A DNA stretch of 21,961 bases, taken from positions 1 to 21,961 of IMG/VR virus record IMGVR_UViG_3300021371_000114. The stretch is one strand, 5' to 3'. The DNA comes from a virus. The notes under the pieces are model-generated. The model was not told the origin of the DNA. It saw nothing but the letters and a program-made list of their open reading frames with translations, and searched no databases. A program made the translations under genes and the position numbers. Of the stretch, positions 2,222 through 11,050 are shown piece after piece. Within the stretch, counting starts at the first letter, position 1; every line of letters begins with the position of its first letter.

Positions 2222-2644
2222 TTACTTAGAAAACCCCGCACCAAAGTATAGTCCAACGATAGCAGACACGATGTGTGTGTCCAGTGGTGTGATAACGAAC
2301 CCTTGTGCTGACTGCCATACAATCTGCTTGTCAGGTCCGAACAGGAAGTTCCAGAAACCCCCTTGTACTTCTGTGTACCCTACAAACACGGGTACTTCTG
2401 GATACCACACAGCTACTAGCTTGGGTAGTACGATGATTGAAATGACAGCTGAGAGTGCTATGATCCTACGAGTCCAAGCAAAATGCTTGTCCTTTGATCC
2501 GTACTCTCTGGCTGTGTTAGTTGCTCCAATGAGCATGGCCTGTTGTTCAGCCTTGTTCTTGTTGCTCTGACCCCAGATGGACATGACACCACCAAGGATC
2601 GTAGAGAAAAGCATAGTTAGTAATTCTAAAGGAAGTCCGAACAT
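2222..2644 (-). CDS. Putative holin with three transmembrane segments (140 aa)
   Basis: Three hydrophobic segments are visible at about residues 5-24, 61-80 and 122-137. The linker between the first two is charged (SNKNKAEQQAMLIGATNTAREYGSKDK), and W57-T-R-R leads into the second helix. Topology and the TRR...W pattern resemble the three-TM holin families of phages and gene-transfer agents. The gene lies directly downstream of a lysozyme-like gene and upstream of the membrane coiled-coil genes, as expected for a lysis cassette. ATG at 2644 forms TAATG with the upstream gene, and AGGT lies about 9 bases ahead. Holin is the best call but is not proven; a virion membrane protein is the alternative. 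Confidence 0.68.
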   Translation of the reverse strand: MFGLPLELLTMLFSTILGGVMSIWGQSNKNKAEQQAMLIGATNTAREYGSKDKHFAWTRRIIALSAVISIIVLPKLVAVWYPEVPVFVGYTEVQGGFWNFLFGPDKQIVWQSAQGFVITPLDTHIVSAIVGLYFGAGFSK

Positions 2645-3408
2645 TACAGTTTACCTAAGTTAATAACCATCTCTGATTCAAAAGGTTCTCCTTTTTCTTT
2701 CAACTCTTCCTGCCTTGCGTAACCGATTATAGAGGCTGCTTCAACGGGGTTAGTCACTGCCTGAGAAAGTATCTCCAGTGCTTTAAGGTTATCGCCGTTC
2801 TTCTTAGCTTCGTAATAGGCTACTCGTTTTGGACCTTTATTAAAATTGTACGTGTTTCTGATGACAGTGTCCCCGTCCTCCTCTGTGAAGTTTAGGCCAC
2901 CTAAAGTACGTGCTAATCTTAGGTCTGGGTTGAACAAACCAGCCAAAGGTCCAGACTTTAGAACCTCACTTTCAGAAGTTCCAAAGTCTTCGTAGTCTAG
3001 TGATGCCCTGCCTTCTGCCTTAGCCTTCGCTACAGCCTTAGCTAAAGTAGCTAAGTCCTTTTCGTTAAGATCATCTTGAGTTAGATTACCCCCCGAATTA
3101 AAAAGATTAGCGGCGAAGAATCTATACTCAGACGTTCCAAAATCAGAAGCTGCATCTGACACAATACCAGCACGTTCCTTAAGGTTCTCTACAACCTCAG
3201 GTGCAGTCTCTACAACCTCAGAAGCAATGTCAGAAACAAACTCTGTGCCTGTTTCCATAGCATTTGCAGCGCCTTCTACTACCTTTTGCCACAGGGGAGG
3301 CAACTCAAAGTCGCCCCCTTGAGCCACAGGTCTAGGTGTTACTTTAGGTGCAGAAGGTTTTGATGTTGCATCACCTAATGTTTCTGAGGCTTGACTTGAG
3401 AAGTCCAT
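2644..3408 (-). CDS. 254-aa protein with N-terminal DFSSQA tag, probable virion or lysis-associated
   Basis: The protein opens MDFSSQASET, almost identical to the start of the upstream gene product (MLDFSSQATET), then has a Pro/Ser/Thr linker to about residue 35. An acidic helical region (about 40-90) follows, with two copies of DFGTSE at 89-94 and 141-146. The C-terminal part contains NPDLRLARTLGGL, a TYNFN motif at 186-190 and PFESEMVINLG near the end. The LG..F...DxYDFN-like pattern reminds me of a module found in some phage virion proteins and colicin M-like proteins, but catalytic Asp positions appear replaced by Asn here, so I assign no activity. Start codon overlaps the previous stop (TGATG). 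No transmembrane segment or signal peptide. Function unknown. Confidence 0.8.
   Translation of the reverse strand: MDFSSQASETLGDATSKPSAPKVTPRPVAQGGDFELPPLWQKVVEGAANAMETGTEFVSDIASEVVETAPEVVENLKERAGIVSDAASDFGTSEYRFFAANLFNSGGNLTQDDLNEKDLATLAKAVAKAKAEGRASLDYEDFGTSESEVLKSGPLAGLFNPDLRLARTLGGLNFTEEDGDTVIRNTYNFNKGPKRVAYYEAKKNGDNLKALEILSQAVTNPVEAASIIGYARQEELKEKGEPFESEMVINLGKL
3379..3408 (-). repeat. N-terminal tag coding repeat, copy 2
   Basis: The first 10 codons of the 254-aa gene encode MDFSSQASET. The core GACTTCTCAAGTCA is identical at DNA level to the start of the upstream lysozyme-like gene (3930-3962). Confidence 0.75.
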
Positions 3409-3962
3409 CAGTTGCTTACCTCTTCAATTAGGGCGTCAAGAGTAGCGTTGTCTACCTTTTTAAAACCTTCCCAGATACTACGGAGGTTGTTGCGCTTTTG
3501 CGCCTGTGTTTTACCCTTAGCTATGTTTTCTTTAGCTAAGAAAAGAAACATCCGGTCCTGTGTAGCCTTGTTGAACACAGTATCTTTAGGTAGTTTCATA
3601 CGATTTACTAAATCACGAAGTGTTCCACCTACAATCTGGTACTTACCCATAGGGGTAGAGGTTAGACCTTTCTTATAAGCCTCTGTGTTTTTAGGTAGTC
3701 GAGGTTTAACGTAACGCCCATAGTCCCCTGATGGATTAGAAAAGTCTATCAACTCACCTACTGTTTTAGTTGAGACAGCGTAACCCTTGAAAGGCGTATC
3801 GCTGGACTCGTAATTATTAAAGAGTGTGTCGTATCCTCTAGCTTCTACCGCAGACAAGGTACTCTGGGTAACAGAGGAGGGGTCAAGGCTTGTAGAAGAA
3901 GGTGCCTTAGGTGTAGTTTTCTCAGGCGGTGTCTCAGTAGCCTGACTTGAGAAGTCTAACAT
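3408..3962 (-). CDS. Lysozyme-like (lambda R / GH104-type) muralytic protein with N-terminal tag (184 aa)
   Basis: After a tag (MLDFSSQATET) and a Pro/Ser/Thr linker to about residue 33 comes a compact lysozyme-like domain. It has an early glutamate in LSAVEARGYDTLF (E40, candidate catalytic acid), then STKTVGELIDFS, the fold signature STPMGKYQIVGGTLRDL at about 102-118, then LPKDTVFNKATQDRM. This order matches the lambda R/GH104-like lysozyme superfamily, which cleaves glycan strands of peptidoglycan. The frame continues upstream to 4073 with a hydrophobic stretch overlapping the 682-aa gene, but ATG 3962 has a strong AGGGAGG site (3971-3977) and puts the shared tag at the true N-terminus. 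It could be the endolysin or a virion-associated enzyme; position next to ejection proteins and the holin fits either. Confidence 0.8.
   Translation of the reverse strand: MLDFSSQATETPPEKTTPKAPSSTSLDPSSVTQSTLSAVEARGYDTLFNNYESSDTPFKGYAVSTKTVGELIDFSNPSGDYGRYVKPRLPKNTEAYKKGLTSTPMGKYQIVGGTLRDLVNRMKLPKDTVFNKATQDRMFLFLAKENIAKGKTQAQKRNNLRSIWEGFKKVDNATLDALIEEVSN
3930..3962 (-). repeat. N-terminal tag coding repeat, copy 1
   Basis: The first 11 codons of the lysozyme-like gene encode MLDFSSQATET, matching the start of the next gene (3379-3408) apart from one inserted Leu and a Ser/Thr change. Confidence 0.75.
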
Positions 3963-3970
3963 ATTTACTA

Positions 3971-3977
3971 CCTCCCT
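3971..3977 (-). promoter_or_regulatory. Strong ribosome-binding site deciding the 3962 start
   Basis: AGGGAGG on the minus strand lies 8 bases ahead of ATG 3962 and overlaps the stop codon of the upstream internal virion gene. It is among the strongest Shine-Dalgarno sites in the window and argues against the longer upstream reading frame. Confidence 0.8.
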
Positions 3978-6024
3978 ACTCAGCTGCTTTTTTGTAAAGA
4001 ACTCTACCGTCAGCTGGGTTAATAAAAGGAGCACCAACAGGTAGGGAATCAAAGAAAGTTTGTTGCGCCTCATCTGTATCTCCTTTGATAATATATGGTT
4101 TTACTTGGGAGTTTCCTTGAGGGTCAATGTATGTCTCACCTTCTTCGATTAGAGCGAGAGACTCTTGGTTTGCAGTTTTAGGCCCTTCAAATTCAGGTGC
4201 AGGTAGTTCTGTCTCCTGCCTATTGAGTATTAGGTTTTCAAACTGAGTTGTATCAACGCCTAATTTTTTCAGTGCGTTTGCGAACTTCTTGTTCACATCG
4301 TTAATACGGGTAATCTCTGCATACTGCATTGACAAAGCAGCTACTGGGAAACCCTTTCCACGAAGCCTTGTTTTTTCTTCTGTACTCAAGGCGGCACCTT
4401 TGTCCTTAAGCATGTTAAAGACGTTACCGCCGTAGTGTTTGTCAGCGAAATCTTTAGCAAGACCCCCTGCAAGATTTTCGAGAGGTACTTTAAGTCCTAT
4501 TTTACCTACCCCCTGAAGTTCAAAGACAGTGTCTGCCACCACCCCAGATTGACTTGTTGAGAAGATTGTAGCCTGTGCTTGTATAGCTTGTGTCAGCTGC
4601 GCCCTAGCGCCTTTTGCTGCGGCTGGGTCTAACTGTTCTACTTTCTTGAGCAGAGCGAAAGTGTTTTCACCGAAGATGCCAGTACGGGGGTGGAACATTG
4701 TCGCACCATCCATCAGCTGAGTAGCTGTGGTGACGTTCAAGGACACCTTATCAATACCCTCAAGAAAAGCCTTACGTGCGTCCTCTTGGTTCATAGCCTC
4801 AGGTTTAAAAGAGTTTACGTTAAGGAACAAAGAGTGTTGGATAACAGCCAGTCGTTCAGAGGCTGTCCTTGTAGTTGCCTTATCAAATTCATCTTGGTCA
4901 TGGAGTAAGGCCCCAGCTTCAGGTCCATTCTCCGTAGCTGCGTTAAGTTCAGGCTCTAACATACTAGAAAAGTCAACAGATGTATACGGTACATCATCCA
5001 TCTTTACATTACTAAGGATAGATGCAATCTCTTGGAACTGTTTGTTACCAAAAACCTCTGTGAGTTTATCGAGGTTTTGTAACATGGCCCTTGCTAGAAG
5101 TGGATCAGCATCTTCGTTAGCTTCAATTTGTTGGATAATTGCTGCATCAACTTTATTAAGTATGCCTTGTTTAGTATTGGCTATTACATTTGTGTCGTAC
5201 TTCTCAATTGATTCAACCAGAGCATCTAATGCGTCTAGCCGTGTTTGCACACCTGAGTAAGATTCGGTTGAAACATAGGTAGGTTTTGGAAAGCTTGCTC
5301 TAACTTTTACTATCTCTGCCTTAAGTCGTTCTAAACTTTCTGGGCTAACATTACCGCCACCAATCTCGATCTCAAGCTGTTTAAGACCTACTGTACGGAT
5401 GGTATCAAGGGCTAGGATAGCTGTATTGTTACCTGTACGATCCCACTGGGCTTGTGACATAGTTGCAGCGTTTGCAGAAATAAGACTAGCTGCCTCAGTC
5501 TGCATGATAAGACTCATTGTCTTCTGCGTTATCTCTTCTTGGGTGGGGTTAGCATTACCTGATGCGTTTAATTCGTCTATAGCTATGAAATTCCATGCAG
5601 GATTCTCTGCGATAACAGAGGCAACTTTGTTTTGTACAGCTATTAAAGGGTTAGAATTAATATGTTTGAGGTCAACCCCTGTTATAGCCATTGTTGCGTC
5701 AAAGACTTGTTGGTTTGCTTTCAAACCATTTGCGGCAGCTTGAGCGAAAAGAGTGTCCACTTTACTGCGTAACAGTGTTGGGTCAGTACCTTTTAGATTG
5801 TTTAGTTCAGTAGCATACGCAGCATACTTTGCATCCTGAATAGCGGAAGCTGAGGGTACGCTACTAGCCACATCTTTAGCGTAGCTATCTAAAACACTGA
5901 ACAGCCCTTTACCTATAGCCGCTGTCTGGTTTGAAGCACTATCGTAAATTCTGTAGCTTGGGGTTGCAACGCCACGATTCGCAGCTGTTCCTGCATCGCC
6001 AATATCTACCGCAAAACCTGCCAT
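3976..6024 (-). CDS. Internal virion / ejection protein (682 aa, T7 gp15 position)
   Basis: A 682-residue, largely helical, Ala/Asn/Gln-rich protein without signal peptide or transmembrane helix. It opens MAGFAVDIGDAGTAANRG and ends in a small module (LPVGAPFINPADGRVLYKK) of the sort often found at the end of phage virion proteins. Position next to the 1494-aa protein and the gp14-like protein matches the T7 trio of ejection proteins (gp14, gp15, gp16), although here the largest protein comes before this one in transcription order. By analogy it would be packaged in the capsid core and enter the cell envelope during DNA delivery. ATG at 6024 has AAGGA at good spacing. Assignment rests on size, composition and order, not on a sequence motif. 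Confidence 0.78.
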   Translation of the reverse strand: MAGFAVDIGDAGTAANRGVATPSYRIYDSASNQTAAIGKGLFSVLDSYAKDVASSVPSASAIQDAKYAAYATELNNLKGTDPTLLRSKVDTLFAQAAANGLKANQQVFDATMAITGVDLKHINSNPLIAVQNKVASVIAENPAWNFIAIDELNASGNANPTQEEITQKTMSLIMQTEAASLISANAATMSQAQWDRTGNNTAILALDTIRTVGLKQLEIEIGGGNVSPESLERLKAEIVKVRASFPKPTYVSTESYSGVQTRLDALDALVESIEKYDTNVIANTKQGILNKVDAAIIQQIEANEDADPLLARAMLQNLDKLTEVFGNKQFQEIASILSNVKMDDVPYTSVDFSSMLEPELNAATENGPEAGALLHDQDEFDKATTRTASERLAVIQHSLFLNVNSFKPEAMNQEDARKAFLEGIDKVSLNVTTATQLMDGATMFHPRTGIFGENTFALLKKVEQLDPAAAKGARAQLTQAIQAQATIFSTSQSGVVADTVFELQGVGKIGLKVPLENLAGGLAKDFADKHYGGNVFNMLKDKGAALSTEEKTRLRGKGFPVAALSMQYAEITRINDVNKKFANALKKLGVDTTQFENLILNRQETELPAPEFEGPKTANQESLALIEEGETYIDPQGNSQVKPYIIKGDTDEAQQTFFDSLPVGAPFINPADGRVLYKKAAE

Positions 6025-6033
6025 TTCTTTTCC

Positions 6034-9000
6034 TTACTGCATCTGATGAGACAAGAAACTTGACTCACGTTCTAATTCTAGCCTATGTGCATTTCTAAAA
6101 ATGTCTGGAATCTGACCTACATTAATTAGGCTATTCTGAAGGGACATTTTTAGTTCGTTTGAAAGACGCGACGCCCATAGTTCATCTGTGATTTCTGTCC
6201 AAAGGCTATCACCCCTAATCATATCATCTTTGTCCCCATTTGTCAAGAGGTCCATTGCTAGTGTAGCTTTTGATTTTAACTTCGTGGAGATTTCTTTAAA
6301 ATCTTGGTTCTTTTTGTAAACCATTTCTCTGTAATCGTAGTAATTCTGGACAGGCGCAGGGGTAGCGCCGACTAAAACAGCTGCCGCATCATTAGGGGCT
6401 AGGCCGCTGACAGACAGTTTGTAGGTCTTACTGCGGTAGTTACCTGTCTCAATCAACTCAGCAATTTTGTACCCCTTATCTACAGTGGAAAGGTTACGAA
6501 GCAGCTGGGTTAAGTCTTCTCTGACCATTGAGGTTCTACCAGAGACCATTGATTTAACAGCGTTAGAGCCTACCTTGTACATATCGTTTGCGATTTGACC
6601 CGAAGGTCCAAACAAAGTTGATAACAGAGGGTCTTCAAATAGCTTACGGTAGGTGTCCTTAACCTGTTCAGCTGGGGCTACACGGGTAGCGTAAGCTGTC
6701 TCAGTTCCAAGGGTCCACCCAAGTAGCTGGTCAAACAAACCATACTTAACTCTGTTAAACATCTTAACTGATTCAGGGTCTTCGGCAGAGTACCCAAGTT
6801 TTTCTGTAACGTAACCCGCTGTTTGACCTAAACCTAAACCTGTAAGACCCCATATAGGACCAAGAGTGACGAACATACCTAAGCGTTCACCAGCGGTAAA
6901 GTTTCGACCTACGGCAATGTTCTCTAAACTCCTTAAAGAATATGATAGCCATTGAGTTGGTACTCGCATTGGACCAGACTGAGCAAAACTACGGGAGCCA
7001 GTGGTCATACGGAAGGTGAGGTCTTGCTCACGGTTAGTGATCCATCGTTTACCTTCAGGGGAGAAGGGGCTAATATCTGGACGTTTGGCTTGGTGCTCCA
7101 GAAAAGCTGTCACCAGACCTGTCAAACGAGAAGATCGTTCACCTTCCTTGAAGAACAGCGTAGAGAAGTCTAGGAATTTACCGACACCTTCTTGGCTCTT
7201 ACCCAACAAAGTGCTTGACGCACCGAACTTCTGTGGACCTTGAAGTTCTATAACCTGATTGTCAATAATATTACGTCCACTCTCATCTATATAACGAACC
7301 AAGTCGTTTAATTGGTCTACAGATAACTTGGTATAATTAGACAGGCGTTGTATTGCAAGGTCACGTGCAGGTTTGCTAAGGTTAGGGTGCATTATAGCAA
7401 GCATTGGTGCAGTAAGGCCCATAGCTTTAGCACCATACTTAGGAGAAATACCTACAATTACAATACTGTGTAGAGCCTGAAGCATAAACTGGTCAGGGTT
7501 GAAGAAGCCGAACTTAGAGTAGAAGCCTACTTGGAGTAAACGAGAGGCAGGGTCAGTCTTAGTTAGGTCGAGGCTAAAACCTGCGATACTCTTCTTGCCT
7601 GTTTTTTCAAAGATTGCTTCGGTAGCTTGCGTAGTGAAAACTTCCCAAGCTTTAGAGGCTAAAGTAGGTTGGTTTAATCTACGTTTTATGACAGCCTGTT
7701 GCTCACGTAGCTGTGTGGCTATGTCATTAAACTTTCCTGTGGTTGTTACTTCAGCCTGAAGGAACCTCTGCATAGGGTCAAGCCCTTTGATGTCGTCCCA
7801 GTTTTTAATTAAGCCGTTGTTGGCTTCAGCTAGGAGACCCCAGCCCTCGATTGCATCCTTAGTGGCTGCACGGTTTGCGTACCCGTAGACTTCACTACCG
7901 AACTGGTCTGCAATAGCCGCCAGAGGACTATCGTTAGTAGCCTTCTTACCTCCGTACTCCATCAAAGGAGTGTCTCGACGCTTCATACCCTGCCCGTTAA
8001 GAGTTGTGGAAACGTCTTCTCCAACAGTAAGACCTATACGAGTGGGATTTTGACCAGCCATATCGACTGTAACTTTTTCATCCCTTGCTTTAAGGACAAA
8101 CTTTTCATTGAAGTTAAAATTGTATTCTCTACCTAATTTCTGTAGGTCTTCTAGGTCAGTTACGTGTTTATTCCAGTCGTTGTTAGCCCGTATAAGATCA
8201 CCTAATTCTTCGTAGTCAGCTTTACTCAGAGTTAAATCTTCAAGCTTTGTTACACCTGCGTTCTTCATTAACTCGTCGATCTTAATCGCTATGGTGTTCA
8301 GTTGGAACTGTGCAGTTTCAGCTTGTTTCTTACCGAAAGAACCCAACATTGTTTTGAGTCCGGTAGAAATAGTCTTACCACGAATAGCTTGTTCTTTAAT
8401 CGTACCTACAAACCAACGGAACTCAGCGTTTGTTCTTGGGCCACCTACGTTGTAAGGCATGACATCAACACGTTCAAGTACACGAGTTGACTTTACGTTA
8501 GTAACATAGACATGATCCATTAGGGGTTCTTCTAGCCTAAAGATAATCAAATCACCGTCAAGTTTTTCTTTAAGAATAGGCCGACCAGTAACTAAGTCTA
8601 AGACCTGATCGTCTACGCTACTTGCCCGAACACGGTAAGCTATAGATGAAAGACCGTCAGTTAGCTGTGCGAAGACACCTCCACCCTCTACAGCACGTTT
8701 AAGCCTAGCGGATGACTGGATGTGCCAAGACGCATCATTGATGTCTACAAGGGCCTCATATGCGTCCCCTACTTTTTTACTAGGTACCATCCCGTAATCC
8801 TTCTGGTACCTTGCTTCAAATGCTGCTCTTGTAGGGGTCTTCCTTTCGTGAGAGTATTTACCATCACGAAGCTGTGTGAAGAAGTCAGACAGGTTTTCTA
8901 GTTCTTTACCTTTAACAGCCCGGATAGTTTTTTCATAAGGCTTAACTATATTTCCAATAAGAGCCTGTCCAGCCTCAGCTTGAAGGAACTTAGCACCTAA

Positions 9001-10518
9001 CCTGTCACCTAAGCGTACTGTTGCGGCTCCGATAACTTTATTTATTGCATCTGAAACGATGTTATTTTTTGCAAGTATCTCTGCTTGAGGGGATTTATCA
9101 GCTAGGTTTAAACGTTGCTCAGTTTCAATCCACCAACCACGTCCTTGTTCTTTCTTGACAACACGAAGAGATGGGTCTTTAGCTGCAATAGCTTCAGCAT
9201 CCATCTTGCGACGGAAGGCTGTACCTGATCCGTCCTTACCCATACGGACAACAACTTTAAAATCTTCTGAGCCTTCATCGACCAATGTACTTGTCTTAAC
9301 AACGACGTTGTTTGTTCTACTAGCGACTTTCTTAGCTGTTTCTTCAGCCACCTGTTCAATAACAGCACGGGGAAGGTACTCACCGAAAGAACCGTTCCGG
9401 TTAGCTGTCTCTAATTCTTCGATAATGTTATTCTTGTTTGTGTTCTCTCGAACAGCAGCTAGACTAGGTCTTTCAATCGGACCTTTAACTGGGTCTAGGT
9501 CTTCAGGTAAGCTACGTCCAGCATTTACCTTATCTGTCTGTACCCCTGTGTCGTCTACAATCTTAGTTAAGACATTGGCTGCGTTAACCTCGTCTGACAT
9601 AACAGCTACAGTGTCGATAGGTTTACGTGACTTGGCAAGACTTGTTAACTTACTTGCAATCTCAGGGGCTGAGGATATTGTTGCTTTGGTTCCAGTAACC
9701 GCACCCCTAACAGCACCCCTAGCAATCTTCGTAGAGCCTAGGGTAGCAATATCAGCAACACCGAACAAAGCATTAAGCCCAGCCATAGGGTCAGACCCTA
9801 GGTAGGTTGCGTCGTTAGCTTGTTTATAGAGGTTCCAGATACTGTCCCTAGAAAAGAAACCTTCGTCCCGACGTTCAACGATATACTCTTTAGCCCACTC
9901 TTCAAACTCAGCGGGGGTTTTACCGTTAAAGGCTTCACGTATCTCAGAGCCTTCACGGTTAGAACGAAAGGTGACATTCTCAAAGGCACCTAATGTAATT
10001 TCCCGTAGGACGTTTACGTCAAGGAACGTCAAGAACTTAGAAAAACCTGACTGGTCATTCTCTTCGATGGCCTTGACCATGAGGTTGTTCCAGATTGTCA
10101 TGTTTGACAAAGTTCTGGCTGCGTATGGGTTTACATCACGATCACCTAGCATAAGGTTTTGGATCATCAGGTATTCACTTACCGTCATGTCCTTACCTTT
10201 TTCAGCCTTCTCTTGGATTATTGTAGCGACATCGTCTGAAGTCATACCCTCATTATATGCTGCGTCAATATCGGCAGAGAAGTCTGTCTTGAGGTGGTTG
10301 ACCTTAGCTTGTGCCTCAGCACTACCGTCCCCTAGTTCACGCTTGGTCTCTACTTCGTCCAAGGCTTCACCAGTTGTGATAGATATTTCTTGAGATTTAT
10401 TACGCTCGACCTCGCTGAGAGGATTGAATGGCTTCTCCTCCAGCTGTGCAGCTGAGGTATCCCTCAAGAAAGATTCGTTGAAGACCTGATCGCTTAGTGT
10501 TAGTAGAGGTGATCTCAT
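6034..10518 (-). CDS. Giant internal virion / DNA-ejection protein (1494 aa, T7 gp16 position)
   Basis: The largest gene in the window. I start it at ATG 10518 (MRSPLLTLSDQVFNESF), because the open frame further upstream lies inside the gp14-like gene and has no credible composition. The protein is helix-rich, with an N-terminal region rich in Glu/Ala, an amphipathic Gly/Ala stretch at about residues 250-285 (GLNALFGVADIATLG...) and a more hydrophobic late region with GMFVTLGPIWGLTGLGLGQ. Size and position fit the gp16-class ejection protein that helps form the DNA conduit across the envelope. I find no lytic transglycosylase signature at the N-terminus, unlike T7 gp16; a separate lysozyme-like gene lies downstream. 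The ribosome-binding site is weak (GGAAA). Confidence 0.82.
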   Translation of the reverse strand: MRSPLLTLSDQVFNESFLRDTSAAQLEEKPFNPLSEVERNKSQEISITTGEALDEVETKRELGDGSAEAQAKVNHLKTDFSADIDAAYNEGMTSDDVATIIQEKAEKGKDMTVSEYLMIQNLMLGDRDVNPYAARTLSNMTIWNNLMVKAIEENDQSGFSKFLTFLDVNVLREITLGAFENVTFRSNREGSEIREAFNGKTPAEFEEWAKEYIVERRDEGFFSRDSIWNLYKQANDATYLGSDPMAGLNALFGVADIATLGSTKIARGAVRGAVTGTKATISSAPEIASKLTSLAKSRKPIDTVAVMSDEVNAANVLTKIVDDTGVQTDKVNAGRSLPEDLDPVKGPIERPSLAAVRENTNKNNIIEELETANRNGSFGEYLPRAVIEQVAEETAKKVASRTNNVVVKTSTLVDEGSEDFKVVVRMGKDGSGTAFRRKMDAEAIAAKDPSLRVVKKEQGRGWWIETEQRLNLADKSPQAEILAKNNIVSDAINKVIGAATVRLGDRLGAKFLQAEAGQALIGNIVKPYEKTIRAVKGKELENLSDFFTQLRDGKYSHERKTPTRAAFEARYQKDYGMVPSKKVGDAYEALVDINDASWHIQSSARLKRAVEGGGVFAQLTDGLSSIAYRVRASSVDDQVLDLVTGRPILKEKLDGDLIIFRLEEPLMDHVYVTNVKSTRVLERVDVMPYNVGGPRTNAEFRWFVGTIKEQAIRGKTISTGLKTMLGSFGKKQAETAQFQLNTIAIKIDELMKNAGVTKLEDLTLSKADYEELGDLIRANNDWNKHVTDLEDLQKLGREYNFNFNEKFVLKARDEKVTVDMAGQNPTRIGLTVGEDVSTTLNGQGMKRRDTPLMEYGGKKATNDSPLAAIADQFGSEVYGYANRAATKDAIEGWGLLAEANNGLIKNWDDIKGLDPMQRFLQAEVTTTGKFNDIATQLREQQAVIKRRLNQPTLASKAWEVFTTQATEAIFEKTGKKSIAGFSLDLTKTDPASRLLQVGFYSKFGFFNPDQFMLQALHSIVIVGISPKYGAKAMGLTAPMLAIMHPNLSKPARDLAIQRLSNYTKLSVDQLNDLVRYIDESGRNIIDNQVIELQGPQKFGASSTLLGKSQEGVGKFLDFSTLFFKEGERSSRLTGLVTAFLEHQAKRPDISPFSPEGKRWITNREQDLTFRMTTGSRSFAQSGPMRVPTQWLSYSLRSLENIAVGRNFTAGERLGMFVTLGPIWGLTGLGLGQTAGYVTEKLGYSAEDPESVKMFNRVKYGLFDQLLGWTLGTETAYATRVAPAEQVKDTYRKLFEDPLLSTLFGPSGQIANDMYKVGSNAVKSMVSGRTSMVREDLTQLLRNLSTVDKGYKIAELIETGNYRSKTYKLSVSGLAPNDAAAVLVGATPAPVQNYYDYREMVYKKNQDFKEISTKLKSKATLAMDLLTNGDKDDMIRGDSLWTEITDELWASRLSNELKMSLQNSLINVGQIPDIFRNAHRLELERESSFLSHQMQ
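6218..6246 (-). promoter_or_regulatory. Promoter-like sequence inside the 1494-aa gene
   Basis: TTGACA (6241-6246) and TATGAT (6218-6223) are separated by 17 bases on the coding strand of the late operon, an 11/12 match to the sigma-70 consensus. It would start transcription about 190 bases ahead of the 682-aa gene. It lies wholly within coding sequence and one such match in a window this size can arise by chance. Confidence 0.25.
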
Positions 10519-10534
10519 ATTTATTTTTCCAGTT

Positions 10535-11050
10535 CTAACTAAACGCGCCTTTGAAAATAGAGGGGGTTCCTGTACTACCAAAATTAGTCCCGCCGAAGGC
10601 ACTAAACATACTGAAGCCCCCTCCTGAGAGTTGACCTGCTGAGGCCGCTTGTTGCTGGAAGATACCTGCCTGTGCATTATAGGTAGCAGCACTCATAGAA
10701 GCTTGGGAGAACCTTTGACCTAGACCTGACATTTGAGTACCAAAACCTAAGTTACTTCCGACCTGTGAACTTACGCTTGATCTAACGCCCCCTGCGGCGG
10801 AAGTTTCACCGACCCCAGCGCCTTGCATCTGAGCCGCCTGTCTTTGTCTAAGTACTATACTTTGACGAATAGCTTGTCGCCGTTCACGTCGGGCAGCTAA
10901 GTCTTGTTGCTCTTGTTGGGCTGCTATAGCTTGCTTCTGAGAGTCAGCTGCCTTTAGTGACGCTTCTTCAGCCCGTGCCATAGCGTCTTGTTGTGCCTGA
11001 TAGCCAGCGAAGCCTATGACTAACCCTATTACTTGTAAAGCTGGACCCAT
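10535..11050 (-). CDS. Internal virion protein, T7 gp14-like (171 aa)
   Basis: A hydrophobic N-terminus (MGPALQVIGLVIGFAGYQAQ) is followed by an Ala/Gln/Arg-rich helical region (AARRERRQAIRQSIVLRQRQ) and a Gly/Ser/Phe-rich C-terminus. Size, composition and position, between the tail tube genes and the very large ejection protein, are those of T7 gp14 and its podovirus counterparts, which are ejected first and embed in the outer membrane. No enzymatic motif is seen. ATG at 11050 lies 3 bases after the upstream gene. Confidence 0.83.
   Translation of the reverse strand: MGPALQVIGLVIGFAGYQAQQDAMARAEEASLKAADSQKQAIAAQQEQQDLAARRERRQAIRQSIVLRQRQAAQMQGAGVGETSAAGGVRSSVSSQVGSNLGFGTQMSGLGQRFSQASMSAATYNAQAGIFQQQAASAGQLSGGGFSMFSAFGGTNFGSTGTPSIFKGAFS

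Follow-up and report, generated by a model that had tools for sequence, protein, structure and literature searches.

A genome-matched N-terminal peptide shared by a predicted cell-wall hydrolase and its neighbor in cobaviruses, a putative docking signal for the ejection complex

Short N-terminal peptides common to otherwise unrelated proteins of one phage are known from T4, where the capsid targeting sequence (CTS) of IPI, IPII, IPIII and Alt carries diverse internal proteins into the head core and is removed by the prohead protease (PMC5694885, PMC3012670). In the giant phages, the diverged head proteins gp53 and gp54 of SPN3US have identical N-termini, which were read by the authors as reminiscent of the T4 CTS (PMC5694885). 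The T4 CTS is the closest known signal to the peptide described here, referred to as the tag, although the likeness is one of logic and no sequence resemblance is claimed. The statement in an earlier note on this DNA that no signal of such form had been described was thus wrong. There are also clear differences. The T4 CTS is cleaved by the prohead protease, unlike anything seen for the cobavirus tag, and no protease gene is named in the gene tables of CRP-4 and ICBM1. The cobavirus tag, unlike the T4 CTS, changes its sequence type inside a single subfamily, is present in two copies in some proteins and is associated with the tail of an ejection protein rather than with a scaffold. The SPN3US N-termini are long cleaved propeptides on two proteins that are 34% identical, whereas the cobavirus proteins are unrelated to each other. 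Another comparison is with T7 gp16 and the gp15-like proteins of phiM1 and K1E, in which a wall-cutting enzyme is delivered with the ejection complex (PMC8954989, PMC11440229), as we infer for cobaviruses. In those phages the enzyme lies covalently within the ejection protein, while here it is a separate tagged protein and other cobaviruses use a fusion. The literature searched, mostly non-subscription papers, held no description of the cobavirus tag.

The window, by which we mean the whole stretch of DNA analyzed, is a viral record of 21,961 bases. Its capsid protein is identical over its full length at 89% of positions to that of Roseobacter phage CRP-4 and at 86-88% to those of CRP-5 and ICBM2, with 55-57% identity to SIO1 and ICBM1. 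Due to the close match to CRP-4, the window is assigned to the cobaviruses (Cobavirinae, Zobellviridae). Its open reading frames (ORFs), compared with the CRP-4 and ICBM1 records, follow the same gene order (PhoH, lysis genes, gp15-like, gp16-like, tail tube, capsid, portal, terminase). The features discussed here are collected in Table 1. The predicted lysozyme-like hydrolase is the orthologue of SIO1 gp24 and of ICBM1 gp36, the latter annotated as "endolysin, lysozyme-like domain". It shares 65-80% identity with its cobavirus homologues and matches a PHROG endolysin (E 3.7e-10) and phrog_14527 (E 2.5e-18); a Pfam match was looked for and none was found. The gp16-like protein, encoded next to the gp15-like gene, is annotated in ICBM1 as internal virion protein D. 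The ejection genes show strong mosaicism: the last 700 residues of the gp16-like protein (6034-10692 in the window) are 65% identical to CRP-5 and only 30% to CRP-4, although the capsid protein is about equally close to both.

Table 1. Features of the tag locus in the window
Feature	Position	Strand	Basis or remark
Shine-Dalgarno AAGGAG of the long start	4080..4085	-	sequence
In-frame upstream extension of the hydrolase ORF, MRRNKLSLIPYLLVLLLLTQLTVEFFTKKQLSREVVN, predicted signal-anchor	3963..4073	-	ATG start at 4073; overlaps the 3′ end of gp15
Shine-Dalgarno GGAGGT of the short (tag) start	3970..3975	-	sequence; directly behind the gp15 stop codon
Short form of the lysozyme-like peptidoglycan hydrolase, 184 aa	3408..3962	-	PHROG endolysin/lysozyme matches; cobavirus homologues
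Tag 1, MLDFSSQATET, N-terminus of the short hydrolase form	3930..3962	-	sequence; match to tag 2 scores 41-42
Neighbor protein, 254 aa: tag, ~90 disordered residues, folded C-terminal domain 91-254	2644..3408	-	tblastn; AlphaFold2 model
Tag 2, MDFSSQASET, N-terminus of the neighbor	3379..3408	-	sequence; co-varies with tag 1 across cobaviruses
gp15-like ejection (outer core) protein, 682 aa	3976..6024	-	adjoins the gp16-like gene; AlphaFold2
Tail of the gp15-like protein: C-terminal mini-domain, residues ~620-682, candidate tag receptor	3979..4167	-	AlphaFold2; co-variation with the tag

By tblastn, the protein encoded next to the hydrolase, here called the neighbor, is orthologous to SIO1 gp23; within phage records, matches came only from the SIO1, ICBM and CRP-4 group. 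AlphaFold2 predicts its first 90 residues to be disordered and its C-terminal domain to be folded. Its PHROG matches were weak and inconsistent, and Foldseek against a viral library returned only homologues without a named function, while against solved structures nothing usable was obtained for either the neighbor or gp15. Compared with the window neighbor, those of several relatives (L008, 6564-7427; L026; L037; L039) keep a tag and an INLG-type C-terminal end, and the middle domain is replaced, with several versions present. The version in L036 has a C-terminal domain that resembles (26% identity, E 2e-4) part of a very large Pelagibacter phage protein, HTVC115P gp40 (L271, 1654-7335).

The hydrolase and the neighbor begin with MLDFSSQATETPPEK and MDFSSQASETLGDA, respectively. 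Both N-termini, on the minus strand, lie where the earlier note had placed them, and its observation holds and reaches well past these two genes. The tags are followed by low-complexity linkers rich in Pro, Ser, Thr and Ala and then by unrelated folded parts; the note had reported Pro/Ser/Thr-rich linkers and unrelated domains. Among the 276 pairs of N-terminal 15-mers from window genes, the tag pair scores 41 and the next best pair 24. A score of 41 was reached by none of 150,000 random 15-mer pairs taken from different window proteins (maximum 34), and these two comparisons rule out chance as the source of the match. The identity of the DNA core also holds: the 14 bases GACTTCTCAAGTCA occur exactly at 3943-3956 and 3392-3405, and no other window site has fewer than three mismatches to them. 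When the proteomes of the complete relatives CRP-4 and ICBM1 were searched for further copies, as had been suggested, the tag was found only on the hydrolase and the neighbor, with no third tagged gene.

Relatives drawn from phage records and viral contigs provided 31 distinct tag pairs, 29 from cobaviruses and two from more distant phages. The tag classes (DFSSQA, KDYS, SSWNxG and NFWxKD) switch jointly between genomes. The hydrolase and neighbor tags read DFSSQATET/DFSSQASET in the window, L008 and L009, DFSNQATEYKP/DFSSQAKEFKP in CRP-4, SAWNKG/SSWNLA in SIO1 and ICBM1, PSSWNTG/ASSWNTG in L013, KSSWNTGKL/KSSWNTGKR in L026, NFWEKDKPA/NFWDKDKPA in L110 and GKDYSDQ/AKDYSKV in L031, with AKSKWNTGTLL twice in L052. 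Across the 31 pairs the mean score is 41.1 when matched by genome and 23.4 (sd 1.9) when shuffled, with a maximum of 31.9 in 20,000 shuffles. The control segment directly behind the tag shows no match (14.2 vs. 13.3 shuffled). Within the SSWN class alone the matched mean is still 46.3 vs. 37.5, and 0 of 20,000 shuffles were as high. In a partial Mantel analysis the two tags correlate at r = 0.86 given the lysozyme core, the lysozyme C-terminus, the gp15 tail and the N-terminal body of the neighbor, with a permutation maximum of 0.33; since the genomes share descent, which inflates significance, the permutation figures should be taken as strong but not as exact probabilities. The lysozyme core, which lies between the two tags, correlates with either of them at only 0.34-0.36, so simple linkage cannot yield the correlation between the tags and was rejected as its sole cause. 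The earlier note had proposed an alignment of homologues, in which relatives with unlike N-termini would have counted against a common signal. The tags proved to be alike within genomes and to co-vary between them, and its reading of a shared docking or targeting signal is well supported on both grounds. We regard the tag as a short, rapidly diverging docking peptide of cobaviruses.

The similarity could in principle reside in the DNA rather than in the peptide. Among 215 residues that are identical in both tags of a genome (Met and Trp excluded), the codons are the same at 117 and differ at 98, where codon usage predicts 83 identical ones. In L047, 10/10 tag residues are kept while 7/9 informative codons have changed. 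Since different codons specify about half of the residues that the two tags share, it is the peptide that is kept. In the window the core GACTTCTCAAGTC is a small inverted repeat beside both starts, which might point to a signal acting on translation or in the RNA where the two genes start. However, the DNA core is not conserved, since other genomes encode the peptide with other codons, and with residues kept while codons differ a DNA- or RNA-level signal is ruled out for practical purposes; we give it almost no weight. Neutral sequence copying is a further alternative, in which short homology at gene starts would arise by gene conversion or act as recombination joints for gene swaps and would have no protein function. 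The genes of the region are clearly shuffled as modules, and recent copying of tag DNA does occur occasionally, with near-identical tags in L174 (9/10 codons), L112 and L113 (7/8). This reading is nevertheless very unlikely, given the 98 differing codons, the recurrence of tags within one protein and the lack of any match in the control segment directly behind the tag.

The hydrolase gene occupies a slot after gp15 which in other cobaviruses holds an SLT transglycosylase, Amidase_2, Phage_lysozyme (GH24), GH19, a pesticin-like protein or, with an assignment below the curated cut-off, CHAP. Many of these slot hydrolases start with a tag-like peptide such as NFAKYGKIV, NISITGGTLV or MFGDRSQVV, while a few, e.g. 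that of L115, have no recognizable tag. A loose consensus of about [DNS]-aromatic or aliphatic-x-x-x-[GAS]-x-[LIV]-V can be read by eye, which describes a similar form of the tag classes and does not imply common descent. Judged from these N-termini, the tag is a property of the gene slot that is reused on unrelated hydrolases and not a feature of the lysozyme. The tag can also be doubled within one protein, as in CRP-5 (MANFWDNDEVVP...ANFWDKDEVIP), L119 (FAKYGKIVQE...FGKYGKIIEE) and L151 (NISITGGTLVVEK...NVSVKRGTLVIKR). A clear second tag is present in 12 of 37 hydrolases without a neighbor gene vs. 2 of 28 with one. Many neighbor-less hydrolases (25/37) have only one recognizable tag, and we therefore dropped the idea that every genome must have exactly two tags.

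The tail of the gp15-like protein is the candidate receptor of the tag. The body of the gp15-like protein is mostly helical in the AlphaFold2 model, and its tail forms a separate alpha/beta unit behind a disordered linker. The tag correlates with the last 45 residues of gp15 at r = 0.62 and with the body at 0.30, the body adding nothing once the tail is given, and the correlation declines gradually along gp15. The tail adjoins the tag gene, so the correlation partly reflects linkage. As the tail and the tag of the hydrolase gene are adjacent, the neighbor tag, which lies beyond the lysozyme gene, provides the sharper test. It correlates with the gp15 tail at a partial r of 0.505 given the lysozyme core and end (permutation maximum 0.29) and with the gp15 body at 0.045. 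L110 is a natural recombinant in this respect: its gp15 body resembles that of ICBM1 (51% identity), its tail resembles that of CRP-5 (67% identity), and its tags fall in the CRP-5 class. Between the window and CRP-4 the gp15 bodies are barely similar (27%), but the tails are 63% identical and the tags are of one class; with CRP-5 the window has the gp15 body in common (39% over 276 residues) but neither tail nor tag. The presence of the tail also follows the arrangement of the hydrolase. A leave-one-out profile built without close relatives finds it in 68 of 69 split genomes, i.e. those with a separate hydrolase, whereas the tail profile did not detect it (E above 0.5) in the gp15-hydrolase fusions of the cobaviruses L165, L166, L168, L175, L183 and L188. 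The hydrolase is thus either fused to gp15 or separate and tagged, with a gp15 tail. In L065, L179, L180 and L182, which have a fused hydrolase together with a neighbor, the gp15 tail is not recognizable, which counts against docking of the tag on that tail. The major capsid protein was also considered as receptor and is unlikely, since the CRP-4 and CRP-5 capsids are 89% and 88% identical to that of the window and the tags differ in class.

Two further observations concern these proteins. The neighbor-like proteins of phages with a fused hydrolase have N-termini of their own, with YKVLGS occurring twice in L065 (6885-7778) and VLGTFS in L179 and L180 (12725 onward), which possibly represent another tag type. 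The gp15-like protein of L184 (815 aa) has two tandem copies of the tail mini-domain within its last 120 residues, with profile matches of 1.3e-10 and 1.1e-6.

The hydrolase gene is predicted to have a second, hidden start inside the end of gp15. In 53 of the hydrolase genes examined, 30 or more codons upstream of the short start, inside the gp15 3′ end, are free of stop codons in the hydrolase frame, vs. 17 genes expected under synonymous recoding of gp15, and across cobaviruses the upstream extension is strongly hydrophobic, beyond what synonymous recoding leads one to expect. In 35 of 57 genes (3.3 expected) the hydrophobic stretch is preceded by a start codon that has a Shine-Dalgarno match of four or more bases, and the short start has such a match in 47 of 57. 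The SIO1 record gives gp24 as the long form and the ICBM1 record gives the short form. Some genomes, e.g. L050, L129, L151 and L185, have no upstream extension, and in some a lipobox-like leader takes the place of the signal-anchor. The predicted long form, with its N-terminal hydrophobic signal-anchor, resembles SAR (signal-arrest-release) endolysins. Unlike in those, the signal-anchor here belongs to one of two predicted starts and is encoded in another reading frame inside the 3′ end of the gp15-like gene. Our hypothesis is that one gene may serve both lysis, through the long form, and entry, through the short, tagged form. Cobavirus endolysins are said to lack membrane anchors (PMC6775973); given the hidden signal-anchor start in the hydrolase genes, that statement needs revisiting, and the start, if real, would change the published view.

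We propose that a genome-matched docking peptide tethers the hydrolase and the neighbor to the ejection complex via the gp15 tail, a mechanism in which we infer the receptor, the binding, the packaging and the ejection, and whose chances we consider evenly balanced. The tag would act from the extreme N-terminus of the short form of the slot hydrolase and of the adjacent non-enzymatic protein, and both copies would be kept alike because both must bind one partner. That partner would most likely be the gp15 C-terminal mini-domain, with the tail as socket and the peptide as plug. Hydrolase and neighbor would dock onto the internal core and leave with it at ejection, and the ejected hydrolase would open the peptidoglycan. 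By analogy, it is plausible that both proteins are packaged into the core of the virion. Relatives contain this lysozyme family as fusions with a gp15-like ejection protein, and in phiM1 the homologue of gp15, located inside the virion, has a lysozyme-like domain (PMC11440229). Mass spectrometry of virions of the N4-like roseophage RPP1 detected gp63, described as perhaps resembling SIO1 gp24 (PMC4193335), and the gp63 counterpart in DSS3phi2, orf61, carries the domain matched by the window lysozyme. No virion proteome of a cobavirus was found in the literature. Virion packaging with the gp15 tail as receptor is the best current hypothesis, at about even odds.

Its chief rivals are homotypic pairing of the tags and a role in lysis. 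If the tag bound itself, lysozyme and neighbor, or the two tags in one hydrolase, would associate, and the neighbor would be a partner, chaperone or regulator of the hydrolase. That the copies are alike and not complementary, and that tags occur as one plus one or two plus none in many genomes, fits such pairing. It leaves unexplained, however, why the gp15 tail co-varies with the neighbor tag, which lies beyond the lysozyme gene, and why 25 of the 37 neighbor-less hydrolases have a single recognizable tag, and we consider it improbable. The tag could instead serve lysis and not the virion, controlling the endolysin through timing or through contact with the membrane or holin, with the neighbor as a lysis accessory. 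Holin-like and spanin genes adjoin in the same operon, ICBM1 gp36 is annotated as an endolysin, a holin-endolysin pathway has been described in which the hydrolase is called an endolysin (PMC6775973), and the hydrolase has a predicted signal-anchor form. Against this, relatives have members of this lysozyme family fused to gp15-like proteins, and the RPP1 homologue is associated with virions (PMC4193335). In addition, the neighbor has no apparent exported form, so a tag shared with it should act in the cytoplasm or the virion. We consider a purely lytic role unlikely.

Docking on the gp15 tail may be part of a wider system. Tentatively, the gp15 tail and the genome-matched tag could be a co-evolving, swappable peptide-receptor code by which unrelated wall hydrolases plug into the ejection machine without fusion, and one hydrolase gene could yield two products, a tagged one for the virion and, from the hidden start inside gp15, a signal-anchored one for lysis. 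If true, this would explain how phages freely exchange virion-borne cell-wall enzymes, with a plug of about ten residues and a socket of about sixty replacing covalent fusion. It would also provide a directly testable cargo-loading signal for short-tailed phages, and the natural plug and socket variants could be used to map specificity.

Repeated short N-terminal peptides were also seen in the more distant phages L089, L085, L092 and L060. In these, the genes after the lysozyme-bearing gene encode the N-terminal peptides SDDEFFGT, INPYK and TYEEFMKRT, which may be further tags of the same logic.
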